Below, piece after piece: positions 43,601 through 53,729 of a stretch of DNA of 64,000 nt. Positions within the stretch are counted from its first letter, which is position 1. Each line of letters starts with the position of its first letter. Under the pieces are notes generated by a model. It saw only the letters and a list, made by a program, of their open reading frames with translations, did no database searches and was not told where the DNA came from. A program made the translations under genes and the position numbers. The stretch is from Cliona cf. orientalis (taxonomy: Eukaryota > Porifera > Demospongiae > Clionaida > Clionaidae), in the NCBI GenBank assembly GCA_963930775.1, contig OZ005696.1, positions 9,044,980 through 9,108,979 of the forward strand, in the 5' to 3' direction.

Positions 43601-46600
43601 TAGGGCTAGGCTAGCTAGGCTATAGCTAGCTAGCTAGCTGTACTGCAGCCTAGGCTGAGGGCCGGCTAGTCTATCGAGCTAGACCCTTCCTTGCGCTTGT
43701 ATTGCTCGATAGACTAAGGGCGGGCCGGCCGGCCCCAAGGCTGTACTCGAACTCGCGATCGCGATGGCCGCGCCGAGCGCGCGGCGCTTTGCGAATTGCG
43801 CCTCGTGCATCTCCGGCCAGCTCGAGCTCCATGGTTACCATGCACCAATCGGGTGCGTTATGACACAAAACGACATCGTTGTATAATATAATTATAGTAT
43901 AACAAGTATGTTTAATGTCACAATCATGGGATAGTGTGGCTAGCATGCATGATCATCTATTAACAGTACATAGTTCATGTACAAACAGTATCCTGCCTGG
44001 GTAAGATTGTCCATTGGTACCGTGCGCATGCGCAGATGGAAGCAGTTGCAGAGGCCACACCCCTTGGCAAAGTGCTATGGCAACGTTCTCGCTCTGCTCG
44101 AACGTTGCTACCGACTACGGCTCATGGCACATTTAGCGAGTACTGAAATGATGTAATGCATAATATTAATCATAGTATATTATATTTATATAATTATATG
44201 TAATACTATGGTTGATGATAATAGTATAGTGGGACAGTATTAAACACTGTAGGACAGTAAGATAGTATTAAGACTGTACATGATGTGATATATAGTACAT
44301 GACAGTAAGAACAGTATGACAGTAAGACTGCAGGACAGTATGACAGTGAGACAGTAACACTGTAGGGACAGTATGACAATGCGACAGTACTAGTAAGACC
44401 GTAGGACAGTATTAAGACTGTAGCTGGGAGTGTAAGACTGTAGGACAGTATGACAGTAAGACTGTTACAGTAGGACAGTATATTACAGTGGGATAGTAAG
44501 ACTGTAGGACAGTATGACAGTAAGACTGTAGGACAGTATGACAGTGGGAGAGTAAGGCTGTAGGACAGTATGACAGTAAGACTGTTACAGTAGGACAGTA
44601 TTACAGTGGGATAGTAAGACTGTATACGGCAGTAAGACTGTAGGACAGTATGACAGTGGGAGAGTAAGACTGTAGGACAGTAGCTATTAAGACTGCATGT
44701 AGAACAGTATGACAGTGGGACAGTATGACAGTAAGACTGTAGCATAAAGTATGACAGTGAGACTGTAAGACTGCATGTATAATATATTATAGGACTGTAT
44801 GACAATGGGACAGTAAGTCTTAGACCGTATAGGACAGCATTACAGCAAGACTAGCTATGACCGTGGGACAAGTAAGACAGTATGACAGTGAGATAATAGC
44901 CTAAGGATGGTTTAACAGTAGGACAGTATGGTTGGATAGTAAGACTGCAGACTGAACAATAATAATTATAATAACAATGGCCTTGCCTGGGGTAGTAAGA
45001 TGGTATTACAGTAATTAAGATTGTAGAAAAGATGGATTGTGGTCAGTACAGACAGCAAGATATGCCGATGATTGGGACAATGACAAGCAGTGAAATATTA
45101 GGTATTTTATTTTAAAAGTAATGGATACAGATAGATAATAATTATAACACCCCACAATTATAATGGAGCCTGCGTGGTCATGTGATGACACAACACTGTG
45201 GGATTGCCATAGCCACATCAATGATGACATCAAGTTATATACGCAAGTCCCATGCATGACATATAATAATATATATATTGTAATAAGTGTGAGTATGCAC
45301 TAGCTATTATGGCATGGGTCATGAAAAAAAAATGCCATGATTTAGAACCTGCAGTTATTTTATACTCAGTGCACAAGGTCCTGCACATGTCATCTAAAGA
45401 TAAAAGATATTGAAAGGAAGAGGATGACAACAGAATCAGTAACAACCAGTAGGTATAAACAATGTCTACCATGCATACATGAATAAGAAATCACATGAAT
45501 AACCAAGAAAGAAGATAGCTATAATAGCTAACCTCAGCAAGAAGGAGAGTGACATTATTACTAAGTATGCAATTTGTAAAAAACATCGAACTGAGACTGG
45601 TAGTGCTTAAGTGCTTTTTCAATTTCCTGCACACTTCTTTTGTAGAGTGGTAATTGCATGCCTAGAATGTTTGTAATGTTCCGAACAGCATCAAAATTCT
45701 GTGCAATAAAATCTGGATCAATCAAGTCAACATCTGTCCAATCCTGCACATCTGGATATGAATATTGAATTATGGCACTGATAAGCAGGTACTCAAAATT
45801 ACTCATGCTTCCTGTGCTCATGTCTTCTGATACTTGTTCCATAACCCTAGATGTCTTTCTCCCTTTAAGTGGATAAGCTTGAGTGTCGTATCGATCACGT
45901 TTCCTCTTGAATCCAGTTTTTGATGTTATAACTGGTGGCCGTGCTCCATGAGGATTCTGACAACTTTTGCATCTGCAATCTTGAGTGCAAGATCTCTCAG
46001 CCTTAAAACAGGGACATTTTGTGCTGTAGTGATACATGGAGTAAACACACGACACACCTTTTGTTGAATTTCTTCCACACGTGCATTTTATTGTTGGTTG
46101 GATGTTTTCTTTTTCCTCCAGTTGGTCAATGTGAGATACTGCGTCGTAATGGCCAGATCCGTTTTGGTTGTATGCTAGGAAAAATGGATGTGAGTCAACA
46201 ACAGGAGAAGATATCGGCATTAGTGTTACAACTGGCATGTTTTCAGCAGATGTGAAGATTGTAACTGGTTGAGATAATACATTCACGAGTGCAGGAAGGA
46301 CAAGGTCACCCAGGTCACCGCTATAGTGGCCATCTTGGAGGAATTTTTGTGCCTCATTCTGTAGCTGATCATGTGTTAAGAATGATTGATACAAATGAGA
46401 ATTTTCTCCTAACCATTCATCAACAGTTGCTCGTCTTAGCAGTCGAGCAAGTTGTGTTGAGCTGCTTTCAGGTGTGCAGCCCAATTTTTCCACCAATCCA
46501 ACTGTGGTGCTGCTGTCCTTTTGTGTTTGTAGTAGGGAATGTGCTACTGCATAAAATAGGCAATTTCCATCGCCTGCTACTGGTACACGTTTGAAGTTCC

Positions 46601-49600
46601 AAGACTTAAGCACTCCATCCAATCTATTGGAATGTACATCAAATACATCAAGGTTAGTTGATTCAGAGAGAGGAATAGCTGCATTTGCTTGGTAAGGCTC
46701 ATTCGTAAGTGTTTCTAAACCACCAGAATTGAAGAGCTTTGGAAGTGCACTACTCATGAAAGGTAACTCTTTCAGTGGTACTTTAGCCTTTTTTGTTTGC
46801 TTAGACATGTGTTCATGTACAAAGTACCAGGAAATAGCCTTTAGCAGTATCATTTTCAGTGCATCTAGAGGGATAATAACCACTTCATCACCAAATTCTG
46901 TGGAGGAATGACTGTAAGGGGAACTGAATATGGCTGGAATCCTGTGATTATCAGTGATTCTTTGCATAATATCTGAGTAAGACGATTTTTGTAGTGATAA
47001 AAGTTGCTGACTGTCAGATTCATCAACAGAGGTATCCAATAACCACTGAATACCAAAGTACTCTTTCGATTTAGGGTACTGTTTTAAGTAGTCATATTCT
47101 AGTATGACTCTCTCTCTTCTATTTTCCTTCTTGGCTGCTATTTTTTCATTGTGAACAAAGAAGATTGTAGAAAATAGGGCATAAGCCAATTCAACTCCAT
47201 ACCGTGAGGATGTAACGATCCTATTTAATATTTCTTATGCAAAGCTTCATTACGGTTGGTTCCTCTGCCAGGCTTAATTCCAGATAGACATCCTTTTGAC
47301 ATGTGCAGCTTTAGGTTCTGGGCTTCTTTAATAGCCGAAGGTGACAAAACTTTCCAACCTTTATACTCTACTTTATCCCACTTTTGTAGAAACCTGTTCA
47401 ACTGACCAATAAGAATGGAGGGATCGGGAGTATCCATTAATCTCGTTTCACCTCTATCTTGTGGGTCTCTAAACACTGTGGACAGTTCTCTCATGCAGTC
47501 ATTTCGTAGAGGATGTCGCTTGGGAATCTTGTCACTTATTCGTTTTACTGCATGGAAAAGATCAAGCTTCACGCTCAAGTGTGCTCCAAATACTTCCTGA
47601 AGTTTGTTTCGCCAGGAGCAGCAGTTGTCAATAAAAAAATTCAGTTAAGTTCTTTCCTTGCATTTGTAATCTTTCTTTAAGTGACAGCAATTGATCTTCA
47701 ACATTGGTGATTGTCATATTTTTGGTAAGCTTCCACGTAACTACTTGTCCATTTCCATTAAGGACACAAAATAGGGCACTAAACTGAGTGATCCACCGAT
47801 GGTCTAAATTCCTAGACATGCCGATGTTTCCTAAAAAATTATATCAATCACAATAATGTTAGAGTTATCGTAGTTTTAGTATATTAGCTAATAGCTAAAT
47901 CTAGACTGGTAAACGCACCGACAGAGGCAAAAGTGTGGTCACAAGAGAGCCATGAATCTTCATCAGGAATTGTTGTACACTGCATATGTTTATCTAATAG
48001 TGAATTTTTCTCCCAGAAAGAAGCAAGAAAACAACCAGTAATTGCATGTCTTGATGGAGCAGTGGCAGGCAGAAATGAACACCACTCTTCATATGTGGGA
48101 AATTCGTCAACTGAGCATGTACCAGATAATCTTTGGATATGGAAATATCTGTTCTTTCTCTCCGCATACTGTGCAACTGGCGATGTGGCTAAGTTTGTCT
48201 CTATCGTGGATATACTGACTCCTGAAATCATCATGTCTTCAATATCACCTATTAGATCATACATAAAACCAGTCCGTGACCAAAGTCTGAAAGGAATTAA
48301 TGAAGATGCTAACTGTCGTAGAATTCCTGGATGATAGCTGACAACTTCATGGCCTGATTTCATGCATTTGTATATCCTTCCAACCAGAATAGTAACACCG
48401 TCTCTTCCATGGATCTTCCTAGGCTGTAATCTATCTCTTCCAATACCATTCATCCATCCAAATCCATACAGAATACTTGAACTGTCACACCTTGGACAAG
48501 TGAATCCATCTGGAAGAACTCCATTGTATTGTTCCACAGGAGCCCAAACTAAAATTGGAGGTAGCAAGTGAAGAAAAGGGTTCTTTGCAGAGTACTCACG
48601 ATGAACATAGATCAGCGAGAAAGATTTTGGGCTGTCTTCAAATCTTTTACATAAGTCAGATATGAAGGTACACCATTGAGGATGAAGTTTTCCACCTTCT
48701 ACTGCACTCCATAATAGGAACACCAATAAGGGAGCAACACCAACAAAATGCTTGAACATAGGCATAATTATGGTTGACAGGATACATGCAACTACTGTAA
48801 GGTGTAGCTACTCTTAGTCACCTGACTTTTCAAGACAATTAGCCCTAAAAATTGTTTTACAGGGAGGTAATAATTATTACTTTAGAGATGAACATGATTA
48901 TTGTTAGCACATGAACCACAAACCACGACATATGAACTACCATGATGTGACCACAATACCAGTTGCATACATAGCTAGTATGCCATCAGACAGCTACTGT
49001 GGAAGTCTAAATCTCAATCTCCAACTGCTGTACTGCCATTGTGTAAGCCAGATTCTGAAGCATTATCTGAGGATATTTCTGATTATAGCTCTACCTGTAC
49101 ATGTTGTGTAAGTTTATCAGCAATATTTGATACAAAATCAGCTCAAGCAGCAGTTGTATGATATATGTTCTATGCCATTCTACAGTTCAAGATGGCAACT
49201 CCTAGTGGACCGCCATTGAAGAGATCCAGGTTGACTCCAGCTTTTTCAGTGACAGATTCTGATGCAGCGTCAATTTTGCATGATGCACAAGAGATTTCTT
49301 TTCCTTGGGAAGAGAGCATGCCAACAAAGATCTCTGAGTGGTTCAACATAATATCCAAAGCTCACAACACCCGTCCGGAGTTCATGTTTGTGACAGTATT
49401 ATCGACAACTGCCTGCCTTATGGGTCCTGATGCTGTAATCTCTGTCAGAGAAACATACTCAGAGCCAACCAATATGTTTACAGTGTGTATAGGGCAGCCT
49501 GGGTGTGGAAAGAGCCAGGCATTTCGCCTTGCAATTCTTGATCCTCTGAAAGATGTTGGTAAGAAATAATTAGAAATAATAATGACCGCTTCTTGCAAAC

Positions 49601-52600
49601 TGAGCTATTAATTCTTATGTCACAGGTACACCAATATCTGAAATAATAGTGGATGATTATACAAGACGTGGTCTTTTTAATCACCTGCAATTGCATAACA
49701 GCAGAGCACTCTGTGCTCATGAAGAAATGTCGGCCCTCTTCGACACAATTCAGAAACGTCAACTAGAACTGAGTGGTGAACGGCAGCTCTATTGCCGTCT
49801 TTATGATGCAGGAAAATGGACAAACATAACAGGTACTATCACTAATGCTGCTTGTTGCTCTGTGTGCTTAACACTAATTATAATATATACAGGATACCAA
49901 AAACAGGAGGCACGCAACAAGTAGACAAAGTCTGCCTTTGTATAGCTGGTTTTTTGCAACCTCAACCCTTCATACAACGACTGTATCCTGCACTCATGGA
50001 ATCCAATGATGGTTTTCTTGACCGCTTTTTGATCTGTTCTCCACGTCCCAAATTACTATTGGAAGAAGAAGTGGAGGAATGGTGCACCAAGCTTTCCTGT
50101 CAGCCATTGAAGTCTTTATCAGTCGTCTACCAGTTGATCACTCGTTGGCATCGTAGTAGTTTACCACATGTTTACACATTTTCTCCCCAAGCAAAGGAGC
50201 AGTATCGGCTGTTTGCCAATGAGATGACGGTATTAATGAATTCACAGTTTGAGGGAAGTGGAGGAGAAGTGTTCGGTAACTATTCAAAGGACAAAAGAAC
50301 AGTGATCAGGTATGTCAGCCTATATTGTCTTCTGGCATGTATTTACAGTCCATGCATGTTTGCACTAGACTCAGTGGAATCATTCATGTCCTTTATGCTG
50401 CTATGAATATGTTTCTTGATGATGAGACTTCCGATGACGAAATACCAGATGTGGTGACCAAAGTAATTTCACAGGAGGAGGTGCAGATGGCTATTGCACT
50501 AACTGAGTATTTCCAGGCTCAGCGTCAAGCATATGACAAGGTATGTCACTTGTGATATCAGACCCCAGCATTGGTGGGGGGGGGGGGGGGGTCTTTAACT
50601 ATTTTAGGCTACTCAGGTTTTTAATGTACATGCTATGACATCTGTCGGGCTGACTAATTGTATGTAGGTATTCATCCCTAATCTGGCTACCTACAGGCAT
50701 GGATGTATGCATGTATGTATTTTTCATCCAAGCAAGGATACAATGTACATGCAATGCACACATGTATATAGCTAACAAGGCTGTCAGTTAAAATTCTATT
50801 TTTAAATCATACTTAATATGTTTTCCCATCCTCTTTGACATAGCTATTCAATGGCATCAGGTCTCACTTCTATATACTCCCCTTGTGGCCAATGGTTGCA
50901 TGTAATGAAGCAATCAGTGGCTTGGGTGTTACTATGACATTGTAATGAGTTTTGGTTGGTACATACTGGTTATTTAAAAAAATGGGATAACCAAATTGAC
51001 ATGGGAATTGCAGATAACACAGCATTGTGGTGCCAAGAGGTAGTACATGCACCTATTGATGACTGTTTATTGTGGTTATTCTGGTAGGTTGGTGACTTGA
51101 AAACATCCTCTTCTTCAGATCCCAATATTAGAGATAAGCCATCCTTAGCAGTTACCATACTACTCACAAAGGGGGCATTTGTGACACATAGGAGTGTCAT
51201 AAAAAATATGACCACTAAGCAGCGTCCACAAGCAGAAAAAGTGGTTGAAGAAATGAATGGATTAGAGCAACAGCACATTGGCAAACTAAAGTCTATAACA
51301 AGGACACAGACAGCTTTTTATAAGCTGATCCCATCAGAAGAAAACAAGTGTAAGGTGACAGAATTAATTGGAGATGAAAACTGGGACACCTACACGCAAC
51401 GCTTTAAAGAAATTGACCAAACCTACATAACGGCCTCTCAGCATAATCGCTTGTTGGATTCTGCTGATAACAAGGAGGAGCTTGAATCTTTTGGTGTTGT
51501 TGAACGCTCAACTACACAATGACTACAACAATATTATGACACTGTCTCTTATGCTGAGGTTAGCTAATGCTAATTTCTTGGTTTTTGCGATTATAAATTG
51601 TAACATTGTTATGATTTCTTATTTATGCCATTCAGTATAATTATAATACACACATTGAACCTGCTTACACTTACTGGTTGTTGCTTTAGCTGATTCAATT
51701 TTGCTGTAACAGTTGTCCTCTTTCTTTCAATATCTATATTGCCTTTTGATTCACGTGCATGATACTGTCCTATACTGTCTTATTGTCCCACATGCAGTAT
51801 ACGGTCTTACAGTTTACATGCATGTAGTGTCCCACTGTCATACTGTCCTATAGTCTTACTGTCCCACTGTCACAATTGTCCTATAATAATTATACAGTCT
51901 TACTGTCCTACTGTTATACTGTCAGTACAGCTAGGTTGTCCTATGGTCTTACTGTCCCACTGTCATACTGTCGTACAGTCTTACTGTCCTATAGTCTTAC
52001 CATCCCACTGTTATACTATCGTACAGGTTGTCCAGGACTCCTATAATATTATTATTATAATATTATAATATGGTCTTACTGTCCCACTGTCATACTGTCA
52101 TACAGTCTTACTGTCTCACTGTCATACTGTCATCACAGTACTGTCCCGTACGGACGATCACACTGTCATACTGTCCTGAGTATATACTGTCTTATTGTCC
52201 CACAGTCTTATTATGGGCCTATATTCAGTGTCCCACTGTCATACTGTCCTACAGTCTTACAGTCCCACTGTCACATTATACTGTCCTAGTCTTACAGTCC
52301 CACTGTCACATTATACTGTCCTGCACCGACATTTCATTAGCTATATATATACATGACATGATAATTACGCATTACATCATTTCAGTACTCGCTAAACATA
52401 TATAATAATATTATTATAATTATAATAATAATTATGCATTACATCATTTCAGTATACTCGCTAAATGTGCCATGAGCCCCGACTACTGACAGGTATGAAC
52501 AGACCTCGTCTCTCGCTTCGCTCGAGGCTCGGTGGCTAGCGCCAGCGCCTGCTTAGCAGGCCTTTCGAAACGCGCGGCGCTTCGCGCCGATCGTTCGATC

Positions 52601-53729
52601 GATAATGCGTCGCTAGCTGTAGCTATGGCCCGAGGCATTAAGGCTACTCTTCTTTGTGCACACGGCCCTACAGTTCTGACCAATCCTGAGCCTTGTAGTG
52701 CGGCTCGTTCATAGCAACCGGGCGCTTCCAAGACGCGTATCCATGCCCTCATGTAATGACACGGACTATATAAGAAAATTGTCGCTCTGAAAAACATTTT
52801 TCGTTGTATATACAAGTATGTTTAATGTCACAATCATGGGATAGTGTGGATAGCATGCATGATCATCTATTAACAGTACATAGTTCATGCACAAACATTA
52901 TCCTGCCTGGGAAAGATTGTCCATTGGTACCGTGCGCATGCGCAGATGGAAGCGGTTGCAGAGGCCACACCCCTTAGCAAAGCAAGCAAGTGTGCTATGG
53001 CAACGTTCTCGCTCTGCTCGAACGTTGCTACCGACTACTGACAGGTATGAACAGACCTCGTCTCTCGAGGCTCGGTGGCTAGCGCCAGCGTCTGCTTAGC
53101 AGGCCTTTCGAAACGCGCGGCGCTTCGCGCCGATCGTTCGATCGACAATGCGTCGCTAGCTGTAGCTATGGCCCGAGGCATTGTGCACACGGCCCTACAG
53201 TTCTGCGGCCGCGCCGAGCGCGCGGCGCTTTGCGCCTCGTGCATCTCCATGGTTACCATGTTTTTTGCACACGGCCCTACCATTCTGACCAATCGGGTGC
53301 GTTATGACACAAAACGACACTTTCTGAAAATATTTTTCGTTGTATATAGTATAATAATGATAATTAATAATGCTAATTGAAGCTTAATTAGCAGTTTTTG
53401 TACTATTAAAACCTCACCTCAGTGGGTACAGCGCCAAGCACTGACCGTATTGGCGCTTGATCATTCCAGTCCAGAGTGCTGCTGTACCCCGGGAGCACGG
53501 AAATGGCGGAAAGAGCTTGCGATGGGGTAATCTCCGACTCAAATAGTACTTGTAGACCGCCGTTTTTGCATGCCAATAGTGCGCTCAAACACAGTTTGAT
53601 GTAGGCCGCGGGGTCAGAGTCCTCGTAGAGATCGCACGATGGAAGGAGTCGCTCGATCGCAGCCTCTAGGCGGCAACTGCGCGGGTAGATCTTCTCAAGG
53701 ATAATCTCAGCAGGGATCTTGGCAGCCAT
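20215..53729 (-). CDS. TERT: Telomerase reverse transcriptase, copy A (27 exons, intron 1 about 25.7 kb)
   Basis: Catalytic subunit of telomerase. Exons: 53418-53729, 27665-27753, 27515-27600, 27140-27427, 26619-27087, 26483-26559, 26145-26317, 26013-26080, 25556-25880, 25246-25404, 25067-25216, 24854-24985, 24615-24800, 24422-24531, 24252-24348, 24108-24195, 23947-24020, 23808-23882, 23682-23752, 23384-23616, 23077-23160, 22929-22998, 22827-22869, 22574-22724, 20746-20804, 20404-20553, 20215-20286. Phases agree throughout, giving about 1,296 residues from the ATG at 53729. The TEN domain (exons 1-4) is followed by a Lys/Arg-rich linker, then TRBD (RHLVPMAIWGS, motif T; FYVTEHSSRRNQIFYYRK). 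RT motifs: LRFLPKLTGVRPIIN (1/2), HTDIATCYDS (A), GIPQGSKISS (B'), RFVDDFLLIT (C), GVPEYNCHIN (D), EWCGFLV (E). The last six exons give the C-terminal extension. Confidence 0.9.
20805..22573. repeat. TERT-A intron between exons 24 and 25, packed with repeats
   Basis: Near 21362-21412 lies AAAGCCTGG twice, around TTTGGGTTTGGGTTTGGG. 21640-21905 is a diverged relative of the CpG-rich repeat at 52500-52760 (shared CCCGAGGCA, GTGCACACAGCCCTACAG, CCTGAGCCTTGTAGTG). 21985-22070, 22150-22200 and 22435-22505 are related copies of a hairpin built on CTACTTTACC / GGTAAAGTAGGTATTG, preceded in each case by a stretch like ATGAYTGAACATAC. No coding exon is apparent in the intron. Confidence 0.6.
28042..28086. 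repeat. GC-rich hairpin next to the left MULE terminus
   Basis: GTGCGCCAGCCCCTCC and GGGAGGGGCTGGCACGC are inverted around TTTTCCGT. It forms a strong stem just inside the left end of the MULE. Confidence 0.7.
28422..28729. mobile_element. 308-bp MITE with 14-bp terminal inverted repeats
   Basis: Starts AGCCCCGTTTACAC and ends with its exact reverse complement. The interior is made of repeated AAGCCAGCTTA and AAACCGGTTT modules that can pair with each other. No ORF. A relative lies in CDKAL1 intron 5. Confidence 0.8.
31890..32728. other. Left part of MULE intron 4, no gene recognised
   Basis: AT-rich DNA between the last MULE exon and the Harbinger-type MITE. It includes GCGCGTGCATAATATAGCGC near 32199-32218. 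No convincing ORF. Confidence 0.35.
32729..33007. mobile_element. 279-bp PIF/Harbinger-type MITE with TAA target duplication
   Basis: Termini GGCGGGGCAAACTGAATTC and the inverse of GAATTTAGTTTGTCACGCC, continuing inward to GTTTATCGTCAC / GTGACGATAAAC. The inverted repeats are about 34 bp. TAA occurs at 32726-32728 and 33008-33010. A 3-bp TWA duplication is typical of PIF/Harbinger elements. Confidence 0.8.
33576..34147. mobile_element. About 570-bp inverted-repeat element, ends AACCCTCGGCGC
   Basis: Left TTAACCCTCGGCGC (33575-33588) and right GCGCGCCGAGGGTT (34134-34147) form short terminal inverted repeats. The left end also folds back on GCGCGAGGGTTA immediately inside. No intact ORF; the superfamily is not identified. 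Confidence 0.55.
34215..35180 (+). CDS. Intact DD34E transposase of the IS630/Tc1-mariner superfamily
   Basis: Cut-and-paste transposase. The ORF is uninterrupted: 321 residues from the ATG at 34215, chosen because MPAKYSEDLRWRAVWLHLI begins the helix-turn-helix region. HTH residues of about 5-60 (LSVSEIADVLFICKRSVERYLS) and a second HTH at about 75-120 precede the catalytic core. The DDE triad is VWVDETGSN, VVMDNASIHH and PELNPIEHVF, with 34 residues between the second D and the E. Because all three acidic residues and the frame are intact, the copy may be recent. It lies inside MULE intron 4, convergent with the gene at 35305-36345, and I could not delimit clear terminal repeats. Confidence 0.85.
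   Translation: MPAKYSEDLRWRAVWLHLIRGLSVSEIADVLFICKRSVERYLSLYHATGSVAPKNQQHGPPRLLTEFEQISILQSLMVKPTMYLEELQSELYDLTGTWVHVSTICRTVQRLGLTRKKVQLVALQCSMEMQARFMAEISLFDPQMLVWVDETGSNRRNSVRTHGYSLKGMRAVSHQLRVGGKRINAIGVMSMQGMEDAYIVEENVNGDVFERFVRTSLLPILKPFNGTNSHSVVVMDNASIHHLDKIAQMIAGVGALLRFLPPYSPELNPIEHVFSKVKAFLKANDTVYLNTRFPTTLVTMAFCTITQHDCINYIRHSGYMY
35305..36345 (-). CDS. Unrecognised transposon-associated protein, convergent with the DD34E transposase
   Basis: Open frame of 346 residues from the ATG at 36345 (MSQQYFLNQPYYYY); upstream in-frame triplets are not ATG. The first 130 residues are low-complexity (Q, P, S). A central ordered region follows (SNKKEFKMYTLRNI; LKTELFNQLGDEII; FDIGYLVRNEKKWI; GGKLTLWC), suggesting a ubiquitin-like or PB1-like fold by pattern only. 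Then comes a basic KKKKKQ stretch, a helix RMTELVASLRERHGAKYS and a Ser-rich tail. From memory, similar proteins recur beside transposons in cnidarian and sponge genomes. It may be an accessory protein of the neighbouring transposase, or an independent element. No catalytic motif is seen. Confidence 0.6.
   Translation of the reverse strand: MSQQYFLNQPYYYYAADGIQDREIQGAPSAPTRQPITQVHPFVFGRGAGREACIGGSCDYTNQSQGLPLISPNSAAALSQPSPGPQHTHQQQQGTQQSSEAITVGLKVFSPSNKKEFKMYTLRNIQANDFNNPTSLKTELFNQLGDEIICGTLNFDIGYLVRNEKKWIHNAEDARDALALVTNGGKLTLWCTGISPKNQAQGQKRAHAGSVPSSEEPTKKKKKQSFTEEREERMTELVASLRERHGAKYSTLQYRLWAEMFINETHKTLDTPPPYPLFGEEKRPRASSASGQLNEALTGLANSIAIALVPNQLQQSASSSSTASPTKTAQLRSKYMEQLKKPDRPS
36346..37219. 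other. Right part of MULE intron 4: short tandem and homopolymer repeats
   Basis: Contains ACATGTACATGTACATGTAC near 36461-36480 and a G-run of over 20 at about 36656-36679. No gene seen. Confidence 0.5.
38023..38233. mobile_element. 211-bp MITE with ends TACC(A/G)TATAGCCAGAAAT
   Basis: Left TACCATATAGCCAGAAAT, right the inverse of TACCGTATAGCCAGAAAT. The interior has repeated TTTGGCGG modules. It lies in MULE intron 2. Confidence 0.75.
38340..39606. mobile_element. 1.27-kb foldback element with terminal inverted repeats of about 250 bp
   Basis: 38343-38590 is repeated in inverse at 39370-39605 (shared blocks include CGGTGGCCCTGGAGGTCACG, TATCCTCTCCTCCTACCGTC and GCCATTCCAGTACACATG). The right arm carries an extra copy of a GACGGTACGGAGA...GGACATCAGCGTTACGGAC module. 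Another MITE is nested in the 0.8-kb loop. No transposase. Confidence 0.8.
38966..39221. mobile_element. 256-bp nested MITE, ends TGCACCTATCAATGTATTGC
   Basis: Starts TGCACCTATCAATGTATTGC and ends in the reverse complement. A partial copy with the same terminus lies at about 55105-55208. Confidence 0.8.
39607..40857. other. MULE intron 2 spacer with TG/CG/CA microsatellite
   Basis: 40561-40634 is an alternating purine-pyrimidine tract: (GT)n, then CGCGCGCGCG, then (CA)n. The rest is AT-rich without a recognisable gene. Confidence 0.5.
40858..41362. mobile_element. 505-bp TTAA-flanked MITE
   Basis: Termini AGGCATTGTG(T)CACGATATAAG and its inverse, flanked by TTAA at 40854-40857 and 41363-41366. 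TTAA duplication is characteristic of piggyBac and Kolobok elements. The GC-rich interior has no clear ORF. Confidence 0.8.
41748..42246. mobile_element. 499-bp MITE, ends CAGGGTTTCATTTAGG
   Basis: Starts CAGGGTTTCATTTAGG and ends CCTAAATGAAACCCTG, with G-rich subterminal runs on one side and C-rich on the other. No transposase. Confidence 0.8.
42504..42639. mobile_element. 136-bp palindromic MITE
   Basis: Arms of about 44 bp: GTTAGACACTG...TATGTGATTTAGAAGACC and its inverse, around a loop containing AACCCTCGCTTCGCTCGGG. Confidence 0.8.
43262..44118 (+). repeat. CpG-rich repeat unit, first copy (split by the 8.36-kb transposon)
   Basis: 43770-43885 matches 53200-53345 (GGCCGCGCCGAGCGCGCGGC; GCGTTATGACACAAAACGAC), and 43900-44118 matches 52811-53038 (ACAAGTATGTTTAATGTCAC through TGCTACCGACTAC). 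The unit is interrupted exactly after CCGACTAC by the transposon. No gene seen. Confidence 0.75.
44225..44960 (+). repeat. Left subterminal minisatellite array
   Basis: Imperfect tandem units built on GACAGTATGACAGTAAGACT and GTAG, about 24 bp, roughly thirty copies with point changes. It produces long spurious ORFs in several frames. Confidence 0.85.
45561..48765 (-). pseudogene. DDE-like transposase fused to OTU protease and CXC domains (two frame breaks)
   Basis: Exons 47919-48765 (ATG at 48765) and 45561-47830. The first carries CPRCDSSS, a zinc-finger-like element, and SWLSCDHTFAS. The second has RNLDHRW, then DNCCSWRNKLQEVFG, VKLDLFHAVKR, GTNRNEALHKK: a plausible D-D-E triad. It continues as an OTU domain (VPVAGDGNCLFYAVAHSLL with catalytic Cys; HYDAVSHI with the His) and a CXC/CRC-type zinc domain (KCPCFKAERSCTQDCRCKSC), then a tail. 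The frame is broken near 47630 (a run of seven T) and near 47210 (two extra bases). Either this copy is dead or these are assembly errors. The OTU and CXC part is one uninterrupted 542-codon frame. The transposase family is not assigned; KDZ/Zisupton-like is one possibility. Confidence 0.7.
49192..51522 (+). CDS. DUF3987-like P-loop ATPase encoded by the transposon
   Basis: Five exons, 49192-49558, 49626-49832, 49907-50309, 50375-50540 and 51088-51522, join in frame to 525 residues without a stop; all junctions are GT-AG. The Walker A motif is GQPGCGKS (residues of about 100-107). A Walker B-like ALCAHEEMS follows, then FLQPQPFIQRLYP, ESNDGFLDRFLIC and a sensor-like GIIHVLYAAMNMFL. This motif order resembles the DUF3987 family of helicase/primase-associated ATPases, known mainly from bacteria, phages and mobile elements. 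A role in replication or strand processing during transposition is inference. Unlike its transposase partner it shows no lesion. The acceptor of exon 3 was chosen by frame. Confidence 0.75.
50541..51087 (+). other. Intron 4 of the DUF3987-like gene, with G-run
   Basis: Contains a run of about 16 G at 50575-50590 and short ATGTATGTATG repeats. No other feature seen. Confidence 0.5.
51760..52330 (-). repeat. Right subterminal minisatellite array, inverted relative to the left array
   Basis: Tandem units CTACAGTCTTACTGTC(CC)ACTGTCATACTGTC are the reverse complement of the 44225-44960 units. The element therefore has an inverted pair of arrays inside its terminal repeats. Confidence 0.85.
52487..53350 (+). 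repeat. CpG-rich tandem repeat units 2 and 3
   Basis: TGACAGGTATGAACAGACCT begins both 52487 and 53039. The unit includes GCCTTTCGAAACGCGCGGCG, TGCGTCGCTAGCTGTAGC and, in unit 2, the segment ACAAGTATGTTTAATGTCAC to ACCGACTAC. Unit 3 ends in the segment also found at 43770-43885. This shows an ancestral tandem array split by the transposon. Confidence 0.8.

Follow-up and report, generated by a model that had tools for sequence, protein, structure and literature searches.

Does an animal DNA transposon that carries an ATPase gene beside its transposase gene use this ATPase for its own movement, and where among the known transposons does it belong? The question is raised by an element of 8,360 bp in the sponge Cliona cf. 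orientalis (assembly GCA_963930775.1), which occupies positions 44119-52478 of a 64,000-bp stretch of contig OZ005696.1 (9,044,980 to 9,108,979 of the forward strand), termed the window in the following. The element probably represents a lineage of class II transposons in which a DDE-type transposase with an OTU domain and a CXC-like domain is paired with a helicase-like ATPase of the DUF3987 family, and which is marked by terminal inverted repeats (TIRs), GACAGT arrays, and target site duplications (TSDs) of 8 bp. The genome searched for relatives comprises 216.8 Mb in 149 contigs, designated here by number; its size and the introns of the element are those expected of a eukaryote. The window is located on C8.

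A discrete element and its two genes

The left end of the element (44119-44163, plus strand, ~45 nt, starting with GGCTCATGGCACATTTAGCGAG) and its right end (52432-52478, minus strand, ~47 nt) were delimited by alignment of, and search with, the termini. They form inverted repeats of ~45 matched nt with one 2-nt indel, which agrees with the matching termini of ~46 bp in the original prediction. A 26-nt stretch of the right terminus occurs 2 times in the window, once per end and in inverted orientation, with 0 occurrences in 100 shuffles. Comparison of the flanks recovers the perfect 8-bp duplication that had been reported, CCGACTAC, at 44111-44118 and 52479-52486. A tandem duplication of ~0.55 kb (blocks 43902-44118, 52487-52640, and 52812-53182, 96-100% identical) hosts the element in one of its units, so that the other unit supplies an empty site: the uninterrupted paralogous target, placed earlier at ~53020-53060, carries CCGACTAC once, at 53031-53038.

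Further copies uphold these boundaries. The hits of two protein searches were grouped into 16 transposase loci, leaving out weak hits at C1:19702532 and C1:24596412. Both ends were found at 5 of these loci, and 4 of the 5 are bordered by a perfect 8-bp TSD: CCGACTAC in the window, GGGAGAAA at C1:33080579-33088592 (C1:33.08M), GTTAATTG at C1:10670399-10679567 (C1:10.67M), and GCCATATC at C12; no TSD was found at the ends of the fifth element, on C18. The window element is a discrete DNA transposon of the cut-and-paste type, with independent copies that possess TIRs and TSDs of fixed length. It has moved with 8-bp duplications, and its ends, gene content, and arrays are conserved in a distant relative. 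This relative, C1:10.67M, is complete (9,169 bp), its termini differ at 3 of 22 bases, and it keeps both genes, head to head as in the window element, which answers the question, raised beforehand, whether other copies carry both. Its transposase pieces are 48-65% identical to those of the window over the main blocks, and its ATPase is 65% identical over 499 columns. The closer copy, C1:33.08M, shares the termini of the window element (41 nt compared, with 0 mismatches at one end and 1 at the other) and is 92-97% identical to it in three blocks; it bears out the boundaries, but is internally deleted and retains fragments of both genes, with much of both missing. Inside it, a partial gene matching DDE_Tnp_4 (E=1.9e-13) was interpreted as having inserted later. 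Single family termini with no partner end occur at C8:9344659, C18:1754056, C19:5264577, C9:787432, C10:8614834, and C14:789848, possibly truncated or short non-autonomous copies.

The two genes inside the termini are arranged head to head and transcribed away from each other, as originally described. The gene on the plus strand (49192-51522; exons 49192-49558, 49626-49832, 49907-50309, 50369-50540, and 51088-51522) has GT-AG introns and no internal stop. It had rightly been called intact; its size was corrected from 525 to 527 amino acids, counted from the first in-frame ATG chosen. The spliced protein matches DUF3987 (PF13148) with E=5.9e-28 and 98.5 bits (cut-off 27), which substantiates the presence of such an ATPase between the termini, and carries the P-loop GQPGCGKS. 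Its relatives among the PHROG families are annotated as 'DNA helicase' (E=3.4e-12) and 'DNA primase' (E=1.5e-7); no TnsC or IstB match is listed for it by Pfam, and PDB sequences gave no useful match. On the basis of this kinship, a helicase-like role of the ATPase is inferred.

The transposase gene lies on the minus strand (45561-48765). Exon 1 (48765-47919) is followed by a single GT-AG intron (47831-47918) and by exon 2 (from 47830). Of the two frame breaks noticed before, one adjoins an A-run near 47,640 and the other falls near 47,235; the window copy cannot encode an unbroken transposase and would have to rely on other copies. The DDE core stretch (47225-47644, minus strand) comprises the second D (IDNCC), a DxxH motif (LDLFH), and the E (GTNRNE). 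In the aligned relatives, the conserved motifs [SC]xDHTF or SCDHTF, IDNCC, LD[LIV]FH, and GTNRNE follow each other in this order, and DxxH (LDLFH, LDIFH, or LDVFH) is present in 9 of 10 alignment rows, i.e. in every row spanning the region, C12 being deleted there. The D-D-E spacing, counted by hand in the C1:34.09M row, is 73 residues from D to D and 126 from D to E. The OTU-like cysteine protease domain (46146-46574, minus strand) lies above the Pfam cut-off (PF02338, E=6.1e-6, 27.2 bits, cut-off 23.3), contains the active-site Cys (GDGNC) and His (GHYD) motifs, and is a predicted ubiquitin-removing protease. Of the transposase domains proposed originally, OTU is thereby confirmed and the CXC domain reduced to a CXC-like, cysteine-rich one (45945-46091, minus strand): its match to MSL2-CXC (PF16682, E=2e-4) stays below the cut-off of 26.7 bits in the window (21.8) and in the C2 relative (20.1), with cysteines conserved among relatives. 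The N-terminus of the transposase is hydrophobic and signal-peptide-like (48765-48690 in the window), which is odd for a nuclear enzyme; the highest 15-residue hydropathy there is 2.3, 2.5, and 2.6 in the window, C1:10.67M, and C12/C18, but only 1.7 in C2/C7:1.90M.

Between the TIRs and the genes, GACAGT-type units form subterminal arrays in inverted orientation. The left array (44225-44960, plus strand) accounts for 31 units within 44119-45100, all of them on the plus strand, the right array (51766-52325, minus strand) for 28 within 51601-52478, all on the minus strand. C1:10.67M shows the same polarity, with 32/0 units on the left and 0/23 on the right (plus/minus strand). The middles of both elements hold 2-4 units per strand, and 0 units were found in 2 kb of flank on each side of the window element. 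A Markov control, confined to the plus strand, never exceeded 5 units for the left arrays. Because they are conserved across the two lineages represented by the window element and C1:10.67M, the arrays are likely protein-binding sites.

Linkage of the two genes among relatives

A genome-wide protein search recovered close homologues of the ATPase at no fewer than 7 loci; of the 7 recovered, 5 are head to head with a transposase of this family: the window on C8, C1:10.67M, C1:33.08M, C10:1.98M, where the ATPase is split by ~10 kb, and C17:3.21M. Viewed from the transposase, 5 of the 16 loci carry a DUF3987 gene, 2 (C12, C18) carry another gene, and none was detected at the remaining 9. At two of these 9 (C1:34.09M and C2), ~7 kb of flank were read on each side and contain no partner gene; the other 7 rest on genome-wide searches, with counts that are lower bounds.

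The window element and C1:10.67M were also compared codon by codon, after columns of low local identity (fewer than 5 identities in 15) had been removed. For the ATPase (491 codons), the proportions of synonymous (pS) and nonsynonymous (pN) differences are 0.786 and 0.228, with a 95% range for pN/pS of 0.24-0.35; for the transposase (899 codons), they are 0.791 and 0.266, with a range of 0.30-0.37. Both genes are under purifying selection and kept for their coding function, which speaks against the ATPase as a mere passenger. Since relatives in the same genome keep the gene pair, a helicase-like motor is probably part of how the element moves.

A second lineage, with different termini (GGTAGGTACTTGG...), is represented by C12:3213590-3228989 (15,400 bp) and C18:4056543-4070733 (14,191 bp). 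The transposase-OTU-CXC frame of C12 extends over 977 codons and is devoid of the DxxH stretch kept by its sister C18, and the frame of C18 is split; hence, neither is shown to be whole. Both harbor another gene downstream, on the same strand as the transposase and with a P-loop-like stretch. It aligns with DUF927 (PF06048) at 17.6 and 14.1 bits (E=0.0033 and 0.037), below the cut-off of 22.6, and with a PHROG primase/helicase at E=1.1e-4. The genome-wide search yielded 0 DUF927 matches at E<=0.01, which counts against this label, and a DUF927-like helicase in the second lineage may be regarded only as a lead.

Outside the sponge, the ATPase gave 1 pattern match in viral contigs and the transposase profile 32, none of them confirmed, and phages contained no match to the transposase core or to the ATPase.

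Placement of the transposase and DUF3987 partners elsewhere in the genome

For the DDE core, the window pieces, and the relatives, no transposase family in Pfam was matched above its cut-off. NCBIfam gave no relevant match, PDB sequences no useful one to transposase exon 1, and the best for the core profile was 8gl3 with E=0.17. The comparison with KDZ, P, hAT, and Mutator-like element (MULE) profiles that had been suggested was run, and none matched above cut-off. Specifically, the window pieces and relatives show no match to KDZ (PF18758/PF18718) or CxC5, nor to the MULE domain PF10551, and the genome-wide matches to KDZ (72) and MULE (58) include none at the 16 transposase loci. Neither hAT nor P, both of which have family models in Pfam, is among the matches of these sequences. 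Kolobok is contradicted by the TSDs (CCGACTAC, GGGAGAAA, GTTAATTG, and GCCATATC, not TTAA), Ginger1 by their length of 8 bp, as opposed to 4-bp CCGG/CCGT, and by Pfam scans with no integrase match. An hhalign comparison of the OTU-CXC and KDZ transposase profiles gave Prob 0.1 and E=0.61, a weak test with only 9 and 3 sequences. Given the Pfam result and the failed profile comparison, the transposase is provisionally left outside KDZ, MuDR, hAT, P, Kolobok, and Ginger1, and the initial remark that the domain combination matched no superfamily known to be described is supported as far as these comparisons reach.

Transposases with an OTU domain have a precedent in Ginger1, whose TIRs span 40-270 bp and some of whose transposases carry it at the C-terminus (PMC2836005), and the window element resembles Ginger1 in this C-terminal position. 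Ginger1, however, has a Gypsy-integrase-like core and 4-bp CCGG/CCGT TSDs, and no ATPase is mentioned for it ('ATPase', 0 occurrences; PMC2836005), whereas the window family combines 8-bp TSDs with an ATPase gene. A literature search, which took in few subscription papers and neither Repbase nor Dfam, retrieved no publication that describes DUF3987 in a eukaryotic transposon, and among the titles retrieved for DUF927 with transposases and for KDZ none concerns such a eukaryotic pair. Within this literature, the OTU-CXC/DUF3987 element is apparently an undescribed lineage of DDE transposons; what appears to be new is the unusual ATPase partner of a DDE transposon together with an unplaced transposase lineage.

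The ATPase family extends beyond this lineage. Genome-wide, PF13148 gave at least 80 matches, which we grouped into 48 clusters; in this list, itself a lower bound, 36 of the 48 lie on C1 (37.5 Mb of 216.8 Mb, ~17% of the genome). All 5 DUF3987 loci sampled outside the window family (L062-L066) face a KDZ-type transposase; DUF3987 is thus not peculiar to the window element. The transposase of L063 matches Pfam KDZ above cut-off (E=4.3e-8), that of L062 matches CxC5 (E=3e-12) with KDZ below cut-off, and those of L064-L066 are KDZ-type by their similarity to L062 and L063 (E from 1e-87 to 3e-15). The sequences of L064-L066 were cut mainly toward the expected partner side, those of L062 and L063 roughly evenly; given the former cuts, the head-to-head result in 5 of 5 tests presence better than orientation. 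In a position test, with shuffling that used guessed extents for C3 and C14, 4 of the 48 clusters lay within 12 kb of a KDZ match (shuffled mean 0.42, maximum 3), a floor, since the Pfam KDZ scan had missed 4 of the 5 KDZ-type loci later read.

The DUF3987 proteins of these KDZ-type loci vary in their P-loop, which is altered in L062:4472-5992 and L063:4298-5833 (KKGEKKT and NKGQKKT; AxKKGxKKT) and canonical in L066 and the window ATPase. In searches with a KDZ-type ATPase, plasmids returned 21 records, mostly cyanobacterial and below 60% identity, and PDB sequences no useful match. L062 and L063 contain a third gene of ~235 codons with no Pfam match, and L063 adjoins an open frame of 575 codons (L063:501-2225; DDE_Tnp_1_7, E=5.9e-88), which we take to be piggyBac-like. 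A tree of 11 ATPase rows, including 5 cyanobacterial plasmid proteins and omitting the L066 fragment, separates the ATPases of the two transposase kinds into distinct clades, with a warning of long branches meeting; no recent swap between the two kinds is therefore seen.

These data invite the reading that the window family is a very divergent branch of KDZ, with a DUF3987 partner and a transposase that drifted beyond recognition. Its 8-bp TSD is the length reported for Zisupton (PMC12730594). The KDZ-type transposases sampled in the Cliona genome likewise face a DUF3987 gene, the ATPases of both kinds fall on the same side of the branch leading to the 5 plasmid proteins, and in a weak profile alignment against KDZ the second D and the DxxF-H motif are in register. 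By Pfam and hhalign, however, the two transposases are unrelated, and Pfam scans of the KDZ-type loci L062 and L063 showed neither OTU nor CXC, the domains typical of the window family, but CxC5 instead. This reading is rather unlikely. A somewhat better case, though still a doubtful one, can be made for divergent membership in the MuDR/hAT/P/Kolobok/Dada assembly, for example as a Mutator-like element (Rehavkus included), with OTU, CXC, and the ATPase as chance acquisitions. The C/DxxH motif between the second D and the E, a trait of this assembly, gives the OTU-CXC transposases a D-D-DxxH-E pattern; a match to the ZSWIM1-3 RNaseH-like domain, below threshold (E=0.0071), appears in 1 of 5 relatives, and long TIRs are shared with Mutator-like elements. 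Rehavkus in particular is described with minisatellites near one end and a 9-bp TSD (PMC6446971). Against such a membership stand the Pfam results for MULE, hAT, P, and the other transposase families, and the TSD length, 8 bp in 4 of 4 cases as opposed to 9 bp in Rehavkus and TTAA in Kolobok.

The ATPase as a possible part of the transposition machinery

Several observations weigh against a DDE transposon lineage with a dedicated ATPase. The DDE call is based on motifs and spacing, its fold having no Pfam, PDB, or profile support; C12 lacks the DxxH stretch, and the CXC profile match is below cut-off. Among the 7 loci with a close ATPase homologue, C9:4.65M and C1:22.17M have no listed transposase nearby, searches at 9 of the 16 transposase loci brought up no ATPase gene, and only 2 of the 48 DUF3987 clusters lie near an OTU-type transposase, a weak signal (shuffled mean 0.17, maximum 3). 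The codon-column filter lowers pN somewhat, and pS is saturated. Some of these points would suit an ATPase that is a captured passenger, irrelevant to the movement of the transposon: gene capture by transposons occurs, some transposase loci show no ATPase, and the window element has an unbroken ATPase gene beside a broken transposase gene. This explanation is disfavored and very improbable, as two lineages with saturation at synonymous sites preserve the pair and its orientation, with pN/pS of ~0.3 for both genes, and KDZ-type transposases, too, have DUF3987 partners.

In the proposed mechanism, the DDE-type transposase would bind the GACAGT arrays and the ends, perhaps via its CXC domain, and its DDE core would cut and join the DNA. 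The OTU domain might remove ubiquitin-like tags from the transposition complex or from repair factors, as has likewise been suggested for Ginger1. In the simplest reading, the ATPase would unwind or remodel DNA while the element is excised or integrated, working on its ends, on the target, or on excised copies, or would help to copy the element; its prokaryotic DUF3987 relatives have been predicted to act as replicative helicases in mobile elements (PMC5862659). There, DUF3987 and DUF927 proteins are described as fused to or located beside primases, and one DUF927 protein has been reported to be a genuine helicase (PMC5862659). The window ATPase is homologous to DUF3987 and to phage helicase/primase families, and the second lineage is weakly DUF927-like; in contrast to the prokaryotic modules with their primase neighbors, the sponge gene has introns and a DDE transposase as neighbor.

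The main alternative to a helicase role is an ATPase that selects the target or regulates assembly in the manner of TnsC, MuB, or IstB. Tn7, Mu, and IS21-like systems consist of a DDE transposase plus a separate P-loop ATPase, and this two-gene layout resembles that of the window element, although their ATPases belong to another family. The altered P-loop of some KDZ-type partners (L062, L063) would be odd for a processive helicase. A target-choice role nevertheless seems unlikely for the window ATPase, whose sequence kinship points to primase/helicase families and for which Pfam lists neither TnsC nor IstB.

Tentatively, the helicase-like reading can be widened to an old, so far unrecognized two-gene class in which DDE transposons carry a mobile-element helicase of their own and which would span KDZ and the OTU-CXC lineage. 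In such a class, the helicase would replicate or unwind the excised or nicked element, transposition would not be plain cut-and-paste, and the helicase would be exchangeable (DUF3987 or DUF927-like), as in the prokaryotic primase-helicase modules in which both domains occur (PMC5862659).

A functional pairing would mean that a eukaryotic DDE transposon possesses its own helicase-like motor. Such a motor partner is a part familiar from bacterial elements and, in the form of DUF3987/DUF927, from the primase-helicase modules of prokaryotes (PMC5862659). It raises the testable question of whether the ATPase drives excision, target choice, or extra copying, for which the two transposase kinds with the same ATPase partner provide a natural comparison and the conserved inverted GACAGT arrays offer candidate binding sites. 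DUF3987 genes in eukaryotic assemblies would then be transposon genes and not contamination.

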